Part shown: positions 32,975 through 38,943 of the stretch, one piece after another
How positions within the stretch are numbered: the first letter of the stretch is position 1
Layout: each line of letters begins with the position of its first letter
NCBI RefSeq assembly: GCF_003350475.1
Contig: NZ_QQAV01000001.1
Span: forward strand, 674,836 to 738,835
Length of the DNA stretch: 64,000 nucleotides
Direction of reading: 5' to 3'
Source: Pseudacidovorax intermedius
Lineage (GTDB): Bacteria; Pseudomonadota; Gammaproteobacteria; Burkholderiales; Burkholderiaceae_C
Notes under the pieces: model-generated
Told to the model about the DNA's origin: nothing
Seen by the model: only the letters and a program-made list of their open reading frames with translations
Databases searched by the model: none
Translations under genes and position numbers: made by a program

Positions 32975-34309
32975 ATGTCCAATCCCCCAGCCGCCACTCC
33001 CGAATTGCCCAAGCAGCCCTGGCGCGAGACCCTGCGCGTCTACCTGGAGCCGGCCTCGCTGCGCATGTTCGCCCTCGGCTTCGCGGCCGGCCTGCCGCTG
33101 CTGCTGGTGCTGGGCACGCTGAGCTTTCGCCTGCGTGAGGCCGGCATCGACCGGGCCACCATCGGCTATCTGAGCTGGGTGGGCCTGGCCTACGGCTTCA
33201 AGTGGGTGTGGGCGCCGCTGGTCGACCGGCTGCCGCTGCCGCCGCTGACCACGCTGCTGGGCCGGCGCCGCGGCTGGCTGCTGCTGTCGCAGGCCATGGT
33301 CATCGCCGGCCTGGTGGGCATGGCCCTGAACGATCCGCGCGCCGGACTGGAGCCGCTGGTGCTGTGCGCCGTGCTGGTGGCCTTCGGCTCGGCAACGCAG
33401 GACATCGCGCTGGACGCCTTCCGCATCGAGTCGGCCGAGGCGCGCAAGCAGGCCGCCCTGGCCGCGGCCTACCAGACGGGCTACCGCCTGGCGATGATTT
33501 GGGCCGGTGCCGGCGTGCTGTGGGTGGCGGCCTGGGCCGAGGGCAGCGCCACCGGCGCCTACCAGAACGGCGGCTGGCGCACGGCCTACCTGGTGATGGC
33601 CGGCTCGATGGTGGTGGGCGTGCTGACGGTGCTGCTCTCGGCCGAGCCGGCGCGGGTGCCGCTGCCGCCCGCCCGCTCGGCCGGCGAATGGCTGCGCAAC
33701 ACGCTGGTGGAGCCCTTTGCCGACTTCCTGCGCCGCTACCGCTGGCAGGCGGTGCTGATCCTGTCGCTGATCGCCATCTACCGCATCAGCGACGTGGTGA
33801 TGGGCATCATGGCCAACCCCTTCTATGTGGACATGGGCTTCACCAAGGACGAGGTGGCCACGGTCAGCAAGGTCTACGGCGTGATCATGACGCTGGTGGG
33901 CGCCTTCGTCGGCGGCGTGCTGGCCATGCGCCTGGGTGTGATGCGGGTGCTGATGCTGGGCGCCGTGCTCAGCGCCGCCAGCAACCTGCTGTTCGCCTGG
34001 ATGACCACCCGTGGCCACGACGTGACGGCGCTGGTGGCCGTGGTGTCGGCCGACAACTTGGCCGGCGGCATCGCCTCCGCTGCCTTCATCGCCTACCTCT
34101 CCAGCCTGACCAACGTGAGCTACTCGGCCACGCAGTACGCGCTGTTCAGCTCGCTGATGCTGTTGCTGCCCAAGTTCGTGGCCGGCTTCTCGGGCGCCTT
34201 CGTCGAGGCCTACGGCTACGCCACCTTCTTCACCGGGACGGCCCTGCTGGGCCTGCCGGTGCTGGTGCTGGTGGCGCTGGCGATGCGGGCCGCACGCGTG
34301 CGGACGTAG
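32975..34309 (+). CDS. AmpG-like MFS permease
   Basis: 444 residues, 12 hydrophobic helices. Start region MFALGFAAGLPLLLVLGTLSFRL and SWVGLAYGFKWVWAPLVDRLPLP match AmpG muropeptide permeases, as do GSATQDIALDAFRIES and RISDVVMGIMANPFY. AmpG imports anhydro-muropeptides for cell-wall recycling. ATG at 32975 is preferred over an earlier in-frame ATG (32936) because the latter overlaps the divergent M48 start. It is 74 bases from the ketosynthase operon; a shared transcript is possible but not needed. Confidence 0.88.
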   Translation: MSNPPAATPELPKQPWRETLRVYLEPASLRMFALGFAAGLPLLLVLGTLSFRLREAGIDRATIGYLSWVGLAYGFKWVWAPLVDRLPLPPLTTLLGRRRGWLLLSQAMVIAGLVGMALNDPRAGLEPLVLCAVLVAFGSATQDIALDAFRIESAEARKQAALAAAYQTGYRLAMIWAGAGVLWVAAWAEGSATGAYQNGGWRTAYLVMAGSMVVGVLTVLLSAEPARVPLPPARSAGEWLRNTLVEPFADFLRRYRWQAVLILSLIAIYRISDVVMGIMANPFYVDMGFTKDEVATVSKVYGVIMTLVGAFVGGVLAMRLGVMRVLMLGAVLSAASNLLFAWMTTRGHDVTALVAVVSADNLAGGIASAAFIAYLSSLTNVSYSATQYALFSSLMLLLPKFVAGFSGAFVEAYGYATFFTGTALLGLPVLVLVALAMRAARVRT

Positions 34310-34383
34310 GTGGCGGCCTGCAGGACGGTGGCCCCCGCGGCTGTTACGCTCCCTCCTCGTTCCTGAAACCTGCCCGCCGCACC

Positions 34384-35583
34384 GTGCCGCAGAAGATCCC
34401 GCCCCTCGTCATCACGGCCTACACGGCCACCACCGCCCTGGGCACCGGCCTGGAGGCGCTGCGCAGCGCCCTGGCCGCCTCGCGCAGCGGCCTGCGTCCC
34501 AACGACTTCGGCGAGCCGGCCGAACAGCGCCTGCCCACCTGGATCGGCCGCGTGCCCGGCGTCGAGGACGTCGCCCTGCCGCCCGAACTCGCGCCCTGGG
34601 ACTGCCGCAACAACCGCCTGGCCTGGATGGGCCTGAGCGCCGACGGTTTCCTGGCCGCCGCGCTGGCCGCGCGCGAGCGCCACGGCGCCGACCGCGTGGC
34701 CGTGATCATCGGCACCTCCACCTCCAGCATCGGCGAGACCGAGCAGGCCTACACCCGGCTGGACGCCGACGGCCGCTTTCCCGAAGCCATGCGCAACGCG
34801 CAGGTCCACACGCCGCATGCACCCGGCCTGTTCGTGCAGCGCGCCCTGGGGCTGACGGGGCCGTGCGAGACGATCTCCACCGCCTGCTCCTCCAGCGCCA
34901 AGGTCTTCGCCTCGGCCGAGCGGCTGATCCGCCTGGGCCTGGCCGACGCGGCCGTGGTGGGCGGCGCCGATTCGCTGTGCGGCAGCGTGCTGTTCGGCTT
35001 CAACTCGCTGGAGCTGGTGTCGCCCGAGCCCTGCCGGCCCTTCGACGCCGAGCGCCGCGGCATCAGCCTGGGCGAGGCGGCCGGCTTTGCGCTGCTCGAG
35101 CGCAGCGGCACCGGGCCGCGCCTGCTGGGCCACGGCGAAGCCAGCGACGCACACCACATGTCCACGCCCCACCCCGAAGGCGCCGGGGCCGAACGGGCGC
35201 TGAACGACGCGCTGGCGCGCGCCGGTCTGGCCACCGACGACATCGACTACATCAACCTGCACGGCACGGCCAGCAGCAAGAACGACGAGGTCGAGGCCGC
35301 CCTGGTGGCGCGGCGCTTCCCGGCCCGCACCCATGCCAGCAGCACCAAGGGCTTCACCGGGCACACGCTGGGGGCGGCCGGCATCGTCGAAGCCGCCGTC
35401 AGCCTGCTGGCACTGGAGACGGGGCTGATGCCGGGCAACATCAACGCGCGGACGTTCGACGCCATCTGTGGCCCGCAGCTGCGCCGCGAGCCGGCCCAGG
35501 GGGAGGTGCGGCACGTGCTGTCCAACTCCTTCGGCTTCGGCGGCAACAACTGTGCGCTGATCTTCGGAAGGGCCGTGCAATGA
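34384..35583 (+). CDS. Beta-ketoacyl-ACP synthase, aryl-polyene (ApeO/FabF-like) type
   Basis: 399 residues. Condenses malonyl-ACP with an acyl chain. The catalytic set is intact: Cys168 in STACSSSAKV, His293 in NLHGTASSKND, Lys322 and His327 in STKGFTGHTLGAAG, plus GGADSLCGSVLFGFNSLEL and SFGFGGNNC at the end. CRNNRLAWMGL near residue 75 is the style of ketosynthases in aryl polyene clusters. Start is GTG at 34384, as no ATG is near; no clear Shine-Dalgarno is seen. The stop overlaps the next gene by four bases. Together with the next two genes it forms a compact operon. Confidence 0.88.
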   Translation: MPQKIPPLVITAYTATTALGTGLEALRSALAASRSGLRPNDFGEPAEQRLPTWIGRVPGVEDVALPPELAPWDCRNNRLAWMGLSADGFLAAALAARERHGADRVAVIIGTSTSSIGETEQAYTRLDADGRFPEAMRNAQVHTPHAPGLFVQRALGLTGPCETISTACSSSAKVFASAERLIRLGLADAAVVGGADSLCGSVLFGFNSLELVSPEPCRPFDAERRGISLGEAAGFALLERSGTGPRLLGHGEASDAHHMSTPHPEGAGAERALNDALARAGLATDDIDYINLHGTASSKNDEVEAALVARRFPARTHASSTKGFTGHTLGAAGIVEAAVSLLALETGLMPGNINARTFDAICGPQLRREPAQGEVRHVLSNSFGFGGNNCALIFGRAVQ

Positions 35584-36386
35584 GCCGGCTGCCCACGCTC
35601 TACGTCGAAGGCCCGGCCTTCTGGCATCCGCTGCTGCCTGGCTGGGAGGCGGCCCGCGCCGCCTTCCGTGGCGAAGCGGGCCTGGCCGAAGCTCCGGCCC
35701 GCCGCCCGGCGCCGCAGATCCTGGCGCCGGCCGAGCGCCGCCGCGCACCCGACACGGTGGCGCTGGCGCTGGAAGTGGCCAGCGCCGCCGTGGCCGGCTC
35801 CGGCCGCGCGGCCGTCGACCTGCCCTGCGTCTTCACCTCGGCCCAGGGCGACCTGGCCATCAGCGACTACATGTGCGCCACGCTCGCGCAGGCGCCCACG
35901 CAGCTGTCGCCCATCAAGTTCCACAACTCGGTGCACAACGCCGCCGTGGGCTACTGGACCATCGGCACCGGCTGCCAGCAGGCCAGCAATGCGATCAGCG
36001 CCTCGTCGCACAGCTTTGCCGCCGGCCTGCTCGAAGCCGCCACCCAGTGCGCCGCCGACCATCAGGCCGTGCTGCTGGTGGGCTTCGACGCCGAGTCCGC
36101 CGGCCCCCTGGCGCAGGTGCACGACACGCACGGCCTGCTGGCCGGCGCCGTGGTGCTGGCCCCCGAGGCCAGCGAGCGCACCGTTGCCACGCTGTCCATC
36201 GCACTGCACAGTGGCGCAGCCATCCCCACGGACCTGCAGTCCGAGGCGGCCCGTGCGCTGCCGGCCAACGCCATGGCCGATGCGCTGCCCTTCTTCGAAG
36301 CCCTGGCCCGCGGGCCCGACCCGAGCGGCCAGCCGCTGGTCCTCGCGCTGTCCGACACGCTCGCGCTGCACCTCACGCTAGGCTGA
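35580..36386 (+). CDS. Beta-ketoacyl synthase chain-length-factor-like protein
   Basis: 268 residues, half the size of a full ketosynthase. The sequence SAQGDLAISDYMCATLAQAP, KFHNSVHNAAVGYWTIGTG and ASSHSFAAGLLEA is the pattern of the ketosynthase-like N-terminal domain family that accompanies aryl-polyene ketosynthases as chain length factors. No Cys-His-His triad equal to that of the partner is visible, as expected for a non-condensing partner. Translationally coupled to the ketosynthase (ATGA). Presumed to form a heterodimer with it that sets chain length; product unknown. Confidence 0.85.
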   Translation: MSRLPTLYVEGPAFWHPLLPGWEAARAAFRGEAGLAEAPARRPAPQILAPAERRRAPDTVALALEVASAAVAGSGRAAVDLPCVFTSAQGDLAISDYMCATLAQAPTQLSPIKFHNSVHNAAVGYWTIGTGCQQASNAISASSHSFAAGLLEAATQCAADHQAVLLVGFDAESAGPLAQVHDTHGLLAGAVVLAPEASERTVATLSIALHSGAAIPTDLQSEAARALPANAMADALPFFEALARGPDPSGQPLVLALSDTLALHLTLG

Positions 36387-36409
36387 GCGCCCCTTTTCCA
36401 GGAGAGTCC

Positions 36410-38062
36410 ATGCACCCCACGCCTGCCACCCACGACGTCATCATCATGGGGGGCGGCCTGGCAGGACTCACGCTGGCGCTGCAGCTCAAACGGCGCTTCG
36501 GCGACATCGACGTGCTGGTGCTCGAGCGCCGCAGCCACCCGGTGCCGCATGCCACGCACAAGGTGGGCGAATCGTCGGTGGAGATCGGCGCCCATTACTT
36601 CGACACGGTACTGGGCCTCAAGCAGCACCTGGACGAGGCACAGCTGCGCAAGTTCGGCTTCCGCTTCTTCTTCTCCGAAGGCCGGCGCGACCTGGACGCC
36701 GTGACCGAGGTGGGCGCCAGCCGCCCGCTGGCCATTCCCAGCTACCAGATCGACCGGGGCATCTTCGAGAACCACCTGGCCGAGGTGGCCGCTGCCCAGG
36801 GCGTGCGCTTTGTCGACAACGCCCTGGTCCGCCGCATGGCGCTGGACCCGTCCCCGCAGGGCCTGCACCGCATCGAATGGACCGAGGCCGGCGAGCCCCA
36901 TGCCGCGCAATGCCGCTGGATGGTGGACGCCTGCGGCCGCGCCGGCCTGCTCAAGCGCCAGCTGGGCCTGGTTCAGCCCAACGACCACCAGGCCCATGCC
37001 GTGTGGTTCCGCATCGGCAACCGGCTCATGCTGGACGACTGGGGGCAGGACCCGGCGTGGCGCGCCCGCTGCACCCCGGCCGCGCGCTGGCTGTCGACCA
37101 ACCACCTGGTGGGGGCGGGCTACTGGGTGTGGCTGATTCCGCTGGCCTCGGGCTCCCACTCGGTCGGCATCGTGGCCGACCCGGCCTTCCATCCGCTGGA
37201 GCGCATGGACAGCTTCGACAAGGCCATGGACTGGCTGGCCGAGCACCAGCCCGTGCTCTTCGACGTGCTCGACGGCCAGCGCGACAAGCTGCAGGACTTC
37301 GCCTTCATGCGCAAGTTCTCCTATGGCTGCAAGCAGGTCTTCAGCGGCGAGCGCTGGGCGCTGACGGGCGAGGCGGGGCTGTTCCTCGACCCGTTCTACT
37401 CGCCCGGCAGCGACTTCATCGCGATGAGCAACACCTTCATCTGCGACCTCATCACGCACGACCGGGGGGGCCGCTCGGTGCAGGCGCGCGCGCAGCTGTA
37501 CGACCACATCTATCACTCCTTCTACGACAGCACGCTGGCGCTCTACCAGGGGCAATACGGGCTGTTCGGCGACCCCGAGGTGTTGCCGGTGAAGGTGGTT
37601 TGGGACTACACCTACTACTGGGGCGTGCTGTCGCAGCTGTTCTTCCACGAGCGGCTCACCGACGTCGCCACGCTGGGCAACCTGCGCGAGGAACTGCAGC
37701 ACTGCCAGCAGCTGAACATCGCGATGCAAGGCTTCCTGCGCGCCTGGTCGTCGGTGAGCGAGCGCCGCAATCCGGCCCGCATGCTCGACCAGGCGGCGCT
37801 GCCGTGGTTTGCCGAACTCAACGCCAGCCTGCGCGATGCACTGCCCGACGCGATCGCCTTCCAGGCCCGCCTGCGTGCCTGCGTGGCGCAGTTGCGCACG
37901 CTGGCCCACCAGATCCACGCACAGGCGCTGGCGCAGCATCCCCGCCTGGACGACGCGGCGCTGGCGGCACTGCTGGCCCAGCCGATGCCGCGCACGCCCA
38001 TCGACCGCGACGCAGCGCCGATGCTGTTCGAGCAGTTGGCACGCGTGCCGGCGACCGCCTGA
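36410..38062 (+). CDS. Flavin-dependent halogenase-like FAD monooxygenase
   Basis: 550 residues. FAD-binding GGGLAG at residues 14-19; HKVGES with Lys51, where the catalytic lysine of flavin-dependent halogenases is expected; DACGRAGLL around 183; the signature WVWLIP (Trp239, Trp241, Ile243, Pro244), matching the WxWxIP motif of halogenases; and GEAGLFLDPFYSPGSDFI near residue 325, the second flavin region. The C-terminal 150 residues are helical. AGGAGAG lies four bases before the ATG. As the third gene after a ketosynthase pair, it most likely modifies an acyl-ACP or polyene product, perhaps by halogenation as known for xanthomonadins; the enzyme could instead be an oxygenase or dehydrogenase. 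Confidence 0.82.
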   Translation: MHPTPATHDVIIMGGGLAGLTLALQLKRRFGDIDVLVLERRSHPVPHATHKVGESSVEIGAHYFDTVLGLKQHLDEAQLRKFGFRFFFSEGRRDLDAVTEVGASRPLAIPSYQIDRGIFENHLAEVAAAQGVRFVDNALVRRMALDPSPQGLHRIEWTEAGEPHAAQCRWMVDACGRAGLLKRQLGLVQPNDHQAHAVWFRIGNRLMLDDWGQDPAWRARCTPAARWLSTNHLVGAGYWVWLIPLASGSHSVGIVADPAFHPLERMDSFDKAMDWLAEHQPVLFDVLDGQRDKLQDFAFMRKFSYGCKQVFSGERWALTGEAGLFLDPFYSPGSDFIAMSNTFICDLITHDRGGRSVQARAQLYDHIYHSFYDSTLALYQGQYGLFGDPEVLPVKVVWDYTYYWGVLSQLFFHERLTDVATLGNLREELQHCQQLNIAMQGFLRAWSSVSERRNPARMLDQAALPWFAELNASLRDALPDAIAFQARLRACVAQLRTLAHQIHAQALAQHPRLDDAALAALLAQPMPRTPIDRDAAPMLFEQLARVPATA

Positions 38063-38160
38063 CCCGGGAGCGCCTGCGCGGCGCTGCCGGTCGCCACGGC
38101 CGCGATGCGCGTGGCGCGTGGCGGTCCATGCGCCGCCGGCCCGGCGTGCGGCCATCACGG

Positions 38161-38175
38161 TTTACCCAACTTTAC
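38161..38175 (+). promoter_or_regulatory. TTTAC direct repeat upstream of the OmpR-type regulator
   Basis: TTTAC at 38161-38165 and again at 38171-38175, ten bases apart (one helix turn), 49 bases before the regulator start. Direct repeats with this spacing are typical binding sites of OmpR-family regulators and suggest autoregulation. Confidence 0.45.
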
Positions 38176-38223
38176 GAAGACTTCAACCGCCCTTGCCGGC
38201 GGGCTGCGAGCATTCCCTTCACC

Positions 38224-38943
38224 ATGACGACCCCACAGCTGCTCATGATCGAGGACGACCAGCGCCTGGCGCAGATGGTCGTCGAGTACCTGGCCCAGTC
38301 CGGTTTCGCCGTCAGCCATGCCGGCGACGGCGCGCGCGGCATGGCAGCGCTGGAGCAGCAACTGCCTGACCTCGTCATCCTCGACCTCATGCTGCCGGAC
38401 GCCGACGGCCTGGACCTGTGCCGCCGCATCCGCGCCCTGCCCGGCGCCGCCGGCAAGGTGCCGGTGCTGATGCTCACGGCCAAGGGCGACCCCATGGACC
38501 GCATCATCGGCCTGGAGCTGGGCGCCGACGACTACCTGCCCAAGCCCTTCGAGCCGCGCGAGCTGCTGGCCCGCATCCGCGCCGTGCTGCGCCGGCGCGG
38601 CGAGGGCGGCCTGGCGGCCGGGCCCGAGCCGGCGCGCGGCATGCGCTTCGGCTCACTGGAAATCGACCGCGATGCTCGCACCGTGACCGTCGCCGGCCAG
38701 ACGGCCGAACTCACCTCCTACCAGTTCGACCTGCTGGTGGCGATGGCCGAGCGCGCCGGCCGGGTGCTCACGCGCGACCAGATCATGGAGGCCGTGCGCG
38801 GCCGTGAATTGGAAGCCTTCGACCGTTCCATCGACGTGCACATGGGCCGCATCCGCGCCGCCATCGAGGCCGACCCCAAGAATCCCAAGCGCATCCTCAC
38901 CGTGCGCGGCGTCGGCTACGTCTTCGCCAAGCAACAGGACTAG
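38224..38943 (+). CDS. OmpR-family response regulator
   Basis: 239 residues. Receiver domain (residues 5-118) with phospho-acceptor Asp54 in VILDLMLPD, the conserved Lys in YLPKPFEPRELLARI; then a linker and a winged-helix C-terminal domain with ELTSYQFDLLVAMAERAGRVLTR and the DNA-contact RSIDVHMGRIRAAIE and RTVRGVGYVF-type end (TVRGVGYVFAKQQD). Nine bases separate it from the kinase gene, so they are a cognate pair. RstA/PhoP-like by pattern. A TTTAC repeat upstream suggests it controls its own operon. The stimulus is unknown. Confidence 0.95.
   Translation: MTTPQLLMIEDDQRLAQMVVEYLAQSGFAVSHAGDGARGMAALEQQLPDLVILDLMLPDADGLDLCRRIRALPGAAGKVPVLMLTAKGDPMDRIIGLELGADDYLPKPFEPRELLARIRAVLRRRGEGGLAAGPEPARGMRFGSLEIDRDARTVTVAGQTAELTSYQFDLLVAMAERAGRVLTRDQIMEAVRGRELEAFDRSIDVHMGRIRAAIEADPKNPKRILTVRGVGYVFAKQQD

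Follow-up and report, generated by a model that had tools for sequence, protein, structure and literature searches.

A ketosynthase, chain length factor and halogenase-like flavoprotein operon of Pseudacidovorax intermedius and its probable place in a dispersed aryl polyene pathway

The stretch of Pseudacidovorax intermedius DNA analysed here (the window, 64,000 nucleotides; contig NZ_QQAV01000001.1, positions 674,836 to 738,835) contains a compact operon of three plus-strand genes, and the probable part of this operon in an aryl polyene (APE) pathway is considered below. The first gene (34384..35583) has a GTG start and encodes a 399-residue aryl-polyene-type beta-ketoacyl-ACP synthase, or ketosynthase (KS), the second (35580..36386) encodes a 268-residue half-size chain length factor (CLF), and the third (36410..38062) encodes a 550-residue halogenase-like flavoprotein that depends on flavin adenine dinucleotide and is probably a tailoring enzyme. 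The KS and CLF genes overlap in an ATGA and a gap of 23 bases separates the CLF gene from the flavoprotein gene. The trio is flanked by a major facilitator superfamily (AmpG-like) permease, by a response regulator with a histidine kinase, and by an O-antigen-ligase-family protein. A first-pass annotation had described the same coordinates, overlap, gap and compact layout, had named an aryl-polyene-type KS, a CLF partner and a halogenase-family flavoprotein, and had placed an AmpG-like permease and a two-component system at the flanks; all of this is borne out. No sigma-70-like promoter was found in 34200-38350.

The KS matches the NCBIfam model PRK09185 with 505 bits (cut-off 407), and its position in the KS tree assigns it to a halogenase-linked lineage. 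Cys168, His293, Lys322 and His327 are invariant in the 87 aligned KS homologues from fetched loci (87/87), which agrees with the first-pass view of an intact KS with Cys168, His293 and His327. The CLF matches Pfam PF13723 with 84.7 bits (cut-off 25) and is likewise placed by a tree. The half-size partner noted at first is present, but its half size is usual for such systems. In a study on the Lysobacter enzymogenes ORF17/ORF16 KS-CLF pair, every KS has a half-size CLF partner, in which a Gln (Q166) is required for function (PMC3691225). The window CLF has Q156, which is kept in 84/89 CLF and may be the counterpart of Lysobacter Q166.

The flavoprotein matches PF04820 with 51 bits (cut-off 21). 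It features the motifs GGGLAG (G14-G19), WVWLIP (W239-P244) and FLDPFYSPG (F325-G333), which are conserved in homologues, and the WxWxIP halogenase motif of the first-pass annotation is thereby found. Residues K51, K81, W239, W241, I243, P244, P328, S331 and G333 are invariant in 90/90 homologues from the fetched loci. In the alignment K81, located in LRKFGF, is the counterpart of the second KK lysine of CmlS and ChlB4, which is presumably the catalytic Lys. The lysine of HKVGES that had been singled out earlier is present and invariant as K51, but that KK lysine is matched by K81 and not by K51. The predicted fold is a halogenase fold, and its nearest structural neighbours, taken from the VIA-align list, are PltM, Bmp2, ChlB4, CtcP and PltA, with identities of 15-19% and with the last 60-100 residues outside the alignments. 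All three motifs given for flavin-dependent halogenases, GxGxxG, WxWxIP and Fx.Px.Sx.G, in PMC8407142 are matched by the window protein.

The rest of an APE pathway is encoded elsewhere in the same genome, so the trio is not an orphan, as had first been suggested. A genome search with queries from Hydrogenophaga APE clusters, of the kind the first-pass annotation had proposed for an APE-type acyl carrier protein (ACP), ketoreductase and dehydratase, was positive and located the set on contig C4. An AMP-ligase (48% identity) and an APE dehydratase (50%) lie about 6 kb apart on C4, and both are present in 22/22 genomes tested. The C4 gene set spans 213453-223253, all on the minus strand, and consists of a ketoreductase (213453-214184), the dehydratase (about 214249-214713), a methyltransferase (to about 215456), a polysaccharide deacetylase (215631-216446), an MMPL exporter (216443-218845), a LolA-like protein (218842-219435), an acyltransferase (219428-220462), the AMP-ligase fused to a C-terminal FabA-like domain (220583 to about 222307), a membrane protein (222304-222927) and an ACP (222933-223253). 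The FabA-like domain of this aryl AMP-ligase (L140 583-2523) scores 21.4 bits, under the Pfam cut-off of 23. A genome of the same family (G083; locus L151) has the C4 gene order plus a KS-CLF pair between the dehydratase and the methyltransferase, and on C4 these two frames meet directly with no KS-CLF between them.

Contig C15 encodes a glycosyltransferase (71% identical), an acyltransferase, a XanB2-type chorismatase (104240-104608; PF21168, 139.5 bits on the contig and 137.7 bits as a protein) and a second halogenase-like flavoprotein (104830-106287; L161). The latter adjoins the chorismatase, scores 111 bits with PF04820, above the window flavoprotein, and by gene order is the counterpart of Azoarcus arcA. 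Contig C17 carries a KS and an ACP that are related to those inside full APE clusters; this KS groups with the single KS of the APE clusters L107 and L151 (SH-aLRT 100) and is 74% identical to one in G083. The ketoreductase, dehydratase, ACP, aryl AMP-ligase and chorismatase of a xanthomonadin/arcuflavin-type set are all found in the genome, and so are an MMPL exporter, a LolA-like protein, an acyltransferase, a glycosyltransferase and a methyltransferase. Contigs C1, C4, C15 and C17 measure 1.5 Mb, 387 kb, 139 kb and 107 kb. The position of the trio, about 710 kb along C1, puts hundreds of kilobases between it and the other loci in any contig order. In Xenophilus G008 the C4- and C15-type sets form one cluster without a KS-CLF pair, and the trio is on another contig.

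The other KS of the genome were considered as signs of a hidden second cluster, and this was rejected. A PF00109 scan gave 13 matches, four strong and nine weak and partial. In the stretches annotated for this check, L009 (20 kb) and L011 (19 kb), C17 has a KS and an ACP and C5 has a KS, an ACP and a hydrolase, without a ketoreductase and dehydratase cluster. The C5 locus (186887-188497, L011) is an isolated KS and ACP adjoining the hydrolase, and its KS forms a long branch that was left unplaced in the tree. From its match and first residues, C3:123221 looks like an ordinary FabF.

A PF13723 search of the P. intermedius genome detects one protein, the CLF of the trio. One CLF is found in each of 15 genomes of the genus group, always on a contig other than that of the dehydratase, and one in 12/12 Pseudacidovorax, Xenophilus and Variovorax genomes reached through the loci, three of which (G001, G008 and G014) overlap the 15. 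Outside the genus group, the CLF is on the dehydratase contig in 31 of 36 dehydratase-positive relatives, in 30 of them at most 0.9 kb away start to start and in one 6.4 kb away. Co-occurrence was scored in 199 relatives, with the P. intermedius genome included, at E values of at most 1e-10 for the dehydratase, 0.001 for the CLF and 1e-30 for the flavoprotein. The APE dehydratase is found in 51/199, and all 51 are among the 69 genomes with a CLF. The flavoprotein is found in 21/199, all within the 51 dehydratase-positive genomes. Given the single CLF per genome and this co-occurrence, the trio stands as the one candidate found to provide the elongating pair in a pathway that is complete in other respects, and it most likely supplies elongation because the KS-CLF pair present in the cluster of an intact relative is missing from C4.

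The operon therefore very probably belongs to a dispersed APE pathway of the xanthomonadin/arcuflavin type, with genes at no fewer than three, and probably four, places in the genome, and encodes its chain-elongating KS-CLF heterodimer and one of its tailoring flavoproteins. The observations behind this reading are gene content, gene order, co-occurrence, the single detected CLF and the conserved residues. By analogy with published homologues, the enzymatic steps and the pigment itself may be proposed as follows. The C15 chorismatase would make hydroxybenzoate, which the C4 AMP-ligase would load onto the C4 ACP. The window KS-CLF would then condense malonyl units repeatedly, and the C4 ketoreductase and dehydratases would convert each malonyl-derived unit to a double bond. 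Decoration of the ring or the chain would fall to the C4 methyltransferase and to the two halogenase-like flavoproteins, from the window and from C15. The acyltransferases, together with the LolA-like protein and the MMPL exporter, would bring the product, a yellow antioxidant pigment, to the outer membrane.

There are several points that weigh against this reading. This type of dehydratase is absent from 18 of the 69 CLF-positive genomes, many of which score high with PF13723, and another APE type may be present there. The C4 ketoreductase passes the general FabG model with 336 bits (cut-off 273) and fails the flexirubin FlxB model with 258.6 bits (cut-off 340), so its dedication to APE synthesis depends on position and homology. 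The C4 dehydratase, membrane protein and acyltransferase (the last in a partial scan) have no curated family match and the methyltransferase has weak ones, and these four were named by homology to other APE loci. Cooperation of the loci is deduced from co-occurrence since they are unlinked, and the relatives are not independent observations. Finally, according to PMC3949708, arcuflavin carries no bromine even though one gene of its cluster is annotated as a halogenase.

The last point also bears on the least certain part of the explanation, which is whether the window flavoprotein halogenates. Halogenation is slightly more probable than not, with hydroxylation as the alternative. There is an appreciable, somewhat less than even chance that within the APE pathway the flavoprotein is a hydroxylase or another oxygenase. 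Besides the non-brominated arcuflavin, this alternative is favoured by the low PF04820 score (51 bits) and by the CmlS halogenase equivalog model (NF033113), which gives 72.5 bits against a cut-off of 900; a sub-threshold CmlS score shows only that the flavoprotein is not CmlS. The QhpG monooxygenase is among the weak matches (52.3 of 240), and 3nix, a structure whose activity is not known, features WIWVIP and FLDPIFSSG, so the motifs also occur outside the set of proven halogenases. The flavoprotein is dispensable, because one species of the same genus group (G005; L141 10783-10927) has cleanly lost only the flavoprotein and has kept the KS, the CLF and both flanks.

The trio was first proposed to be a minimal tailoring module. 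As an independent module it would borrow a fatty-acid carrier protein and reductases and make its own small halogenated acyl product apart from any APE. The compact trio stands alone at its AmpG site, and it also occurs without other APE genes in the stretch in Rhizobacter (L093), Schlegelella (L094) and Methylibium (L095); the genome with the L095 operon (G019) carries a second CLF beside a dehydratase. However, no other CLF was found for the KS-CLF-less APE locus in the tested Pseudacidovorax, Xenophilus and Variovorax genomes, and among the 199 relatives the flavoprotein occurs only together with the APE dehydratase (21/21). The supply of carrier protein and reductase from elsewhere is supported by the C4 set, but with that APE set on C4 and a chorismatase and glycosyltransferase on C15 an independent module is improbable.

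The best 80 of 129 confirmed flavoprotein loci were fetched, and the nearest named relatives are Pseudacidovorax (L037-L041), with flavoproteins that are 92-97% identical. The same AmpG/response-regulator site is found in 56 of the 80 loci, from Pseudacidovorax, Xenophilus, Variovorax and nearby metagenome-assembled genomes or unclassified strains. The whole trio is present at 55/56 of these, the exception (L079) starting inside the operon at a contig end, and because of this recurrence the operon is not a chance arrangement. In a Variovorax locus (L087, 11620-18119) the flavoprotein and response regulator genes stand some 6.5 kb apart, compared with the usual 0.1 kb or so, probably through an insertion. 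Other APE genes lie within the stretch in 18 of the remaining 24 loci, and none were found within the stretch in the other six away from the AmpG site (L089, L092-L095 and L105). The ratio of nonsynonymous to synonymous change (dN/dS) of the trio is 0.04-0.22 against three Pseudacidovorax relatives (L039-L041), which indicates purifying selection. Xenophilus/Variovorax pairs (L045, L047 and L068) gave higher values of 0.26-0.64, which were left out of the argument, as DNA this rich in GC is probably saturated for synonymous change. Fisher p-values, which count related genomes as independent, were not read as probabilities. That the trio is a decaying remnant of a lost APE cluster is very improbable: its distance from the rest of the pathway and the clean flavoprotein loss in G005 would fit, but the three frames are intact, the catalytic residues are invariant, dN/dS is low within the genus, and the site, the gene order and the partner genes are kept. 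In the first-pass annotation, full clusters containing the trio in relatives would count as a sign that this locus is a plain remnant; such clusters do occur in Steroidobacter, Rubrivivax and others, but the locus does not resemble a remnant, since the genome retains the other pathway genes and the trio is under purifying selection.

The KS and CLF trees distinguish a halogenase-linked kind from a dehydratase-linked kind, with labels assigned by best BLAST hit and not by adjacency. The KS tree has 55 rows, from 41 chosen sources and two other KS of the P. intermedius genome. The halogenase-linked KS form one side of a branch with support 31, and their main clade (30 rows, support 98) excludes three distant rows (L156-L158). 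The dehydratase-linked KS form a clade of 10 rows (support 90), and the eleventh row with that label, L107, is a mislabelled single KS. The CLF tree (41 rows) separates the two kinds by a branch of support 99; L041 and L157 have no CLF row under the open reading frame and score limits used. Both KS-CLF kinds occur within one stretch in Hydrogenophaga (L104), Rubrivivax (L114) and G067 (L154). Steroidobacter (L113, L115 and L116) has the flavoprotein-linked kind alone inside a full cluster, and the genome of L115 has one CLF, that of its trio. In the P. intermedius genome the halogenase-linked pair was found and a dehydratase-linked pair was not.

The simplest history would be the loss of one of two redundant KS-CLF pairs. 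More tentatively, and with clearly less than even confidence, two old paralogous KS-CLF lineages may exist, of which the halogenase-linked pair replaced the dehydratase-linked one in Pseudacidovorax, Xenophilus and Variovorax and moved off with the flavoprotein, so that elongation and carrier-bound halogenation would form a portable cassette that alters polyene length or decoration. The cassette is disfavoured because some loci have the flavoprotein without the halogenase-linked pair next to it. It accompanies a dehydratase-linked KS-CLF in or near an APE cluster in L097, L098, L108, L112, G078, G083 and G087, and in L089 it is present and a KS or CLF was not found in the stretch. In L103 only a KS fragment lies beside the flavoprotein. 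The flavoprotein is also rare in the class (8/369 sampled genomes, P. intermedius included).

The arcuflavin (arc) genes of Azoarcus sp. BH72 occupy two unlinked loci that are both essential for the pigment, as reported in 2014 (PMC3949708). C4 has the same order as arcM-V (methyltransferase, deacetylase, exporter, LolA, acyltransferase, dehydratase, AMP-ligase and ACP) from methyltransferase to ACP; a dehydratase and a ketoreductase are added on C4, and no counterpart of arcO was noted (PMC3949708). C15 resembles arcA-arcE (halogenase-annotated gene, chorismatase, MipA, acyltransferase and glycosyltransferase). In Azoarcus the KS-CLF (arcK-J) adjoins a dehydratase and a reductase (arcI-H), whereas here the KS-CLF stands alone with a further flavoprotein and the ketoreductase and dehydratase are with the arcM-V-like set (PMC3949708). 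The same paper lists such clusters for V. paradoxus S110. The Lysobacter cluster is one locus of 17 ORFs described without a halogenase (PMC3691225), and the Acinetobacter/E. coli APE genes form one cluster for which the excerpt mentions no halogenase (PMC8253772); here the genes are dispersed and include halogenase-like flavoproteins. In Acinetobacter/E. coli, ApeO-ApeC (KS-CLF) elongates the polyene with the help of a second, homodimeric KS, ApeR, to which the C17 KS is comparable (PMC8358021; PMC8253772).

Upstream of the neighbouring response regulator gene there is a direct repeat, TTTAC-N5/6-TTTAC (window 38161-38175). It is present in 58/58 loci that have that gene (N6 in 21 and N5 in 37) and absent from the remainder of the 2.08 Mb searched, and it is probably an autoregulatory box of a PhoB/OmpR-type regulator. 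The two-component system was considered as a regulator of the pathway and there was no evidence for this, as the repeat was not found before the trio or in the C4, C15 and C17 stretches.

The find is most likely close to known biology with an unusually scattered layout. The first-pass suggestion of an undescribed system is not supported, since the legend of Figure 5 in a 2013 paper already has a halogenase gene conserved near the KS-CLF pair, except in L. enzymogenes and Xylella, and Variovorax paradoxus is drawn (PMC3691225). Halogenase genes beside KS-CLF in Variovorax and Xanthomonas and split loci in Azoarcus are already published. Two points are new: KS-CLF is separate from the rest in all 15 sampled group genomes, and KS-CLF pairs fall into two paralogous lineages, with just the halogenase-linked one found in P. 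intermedius. The literature search returned no description of a KS-CLF-less C4-type cluster, of a pair missing between dehydratase and methyltransferase, or of two KS-CLF lineages, and for Pseudacidovorax no recognised description of this layout and no paper on the genus and polyenes. APEs are cited as protecting Variovorax from oxidative stress in PMC8253772. Cluster-based mining could misreport both halves of such a pathway, the trio as an orphan and C4 as an APE cluster without a ketosynthase. The genome that lacks the flavoprotein (G005), set against G008 and others that have it, is a natural experiment on what the halogenase-like enzyme adds to the polyene pigment, and the Hydrogenophaga or Rubrivivax genomes with both KS-CLF lineages may tell why one pathway keeps two.

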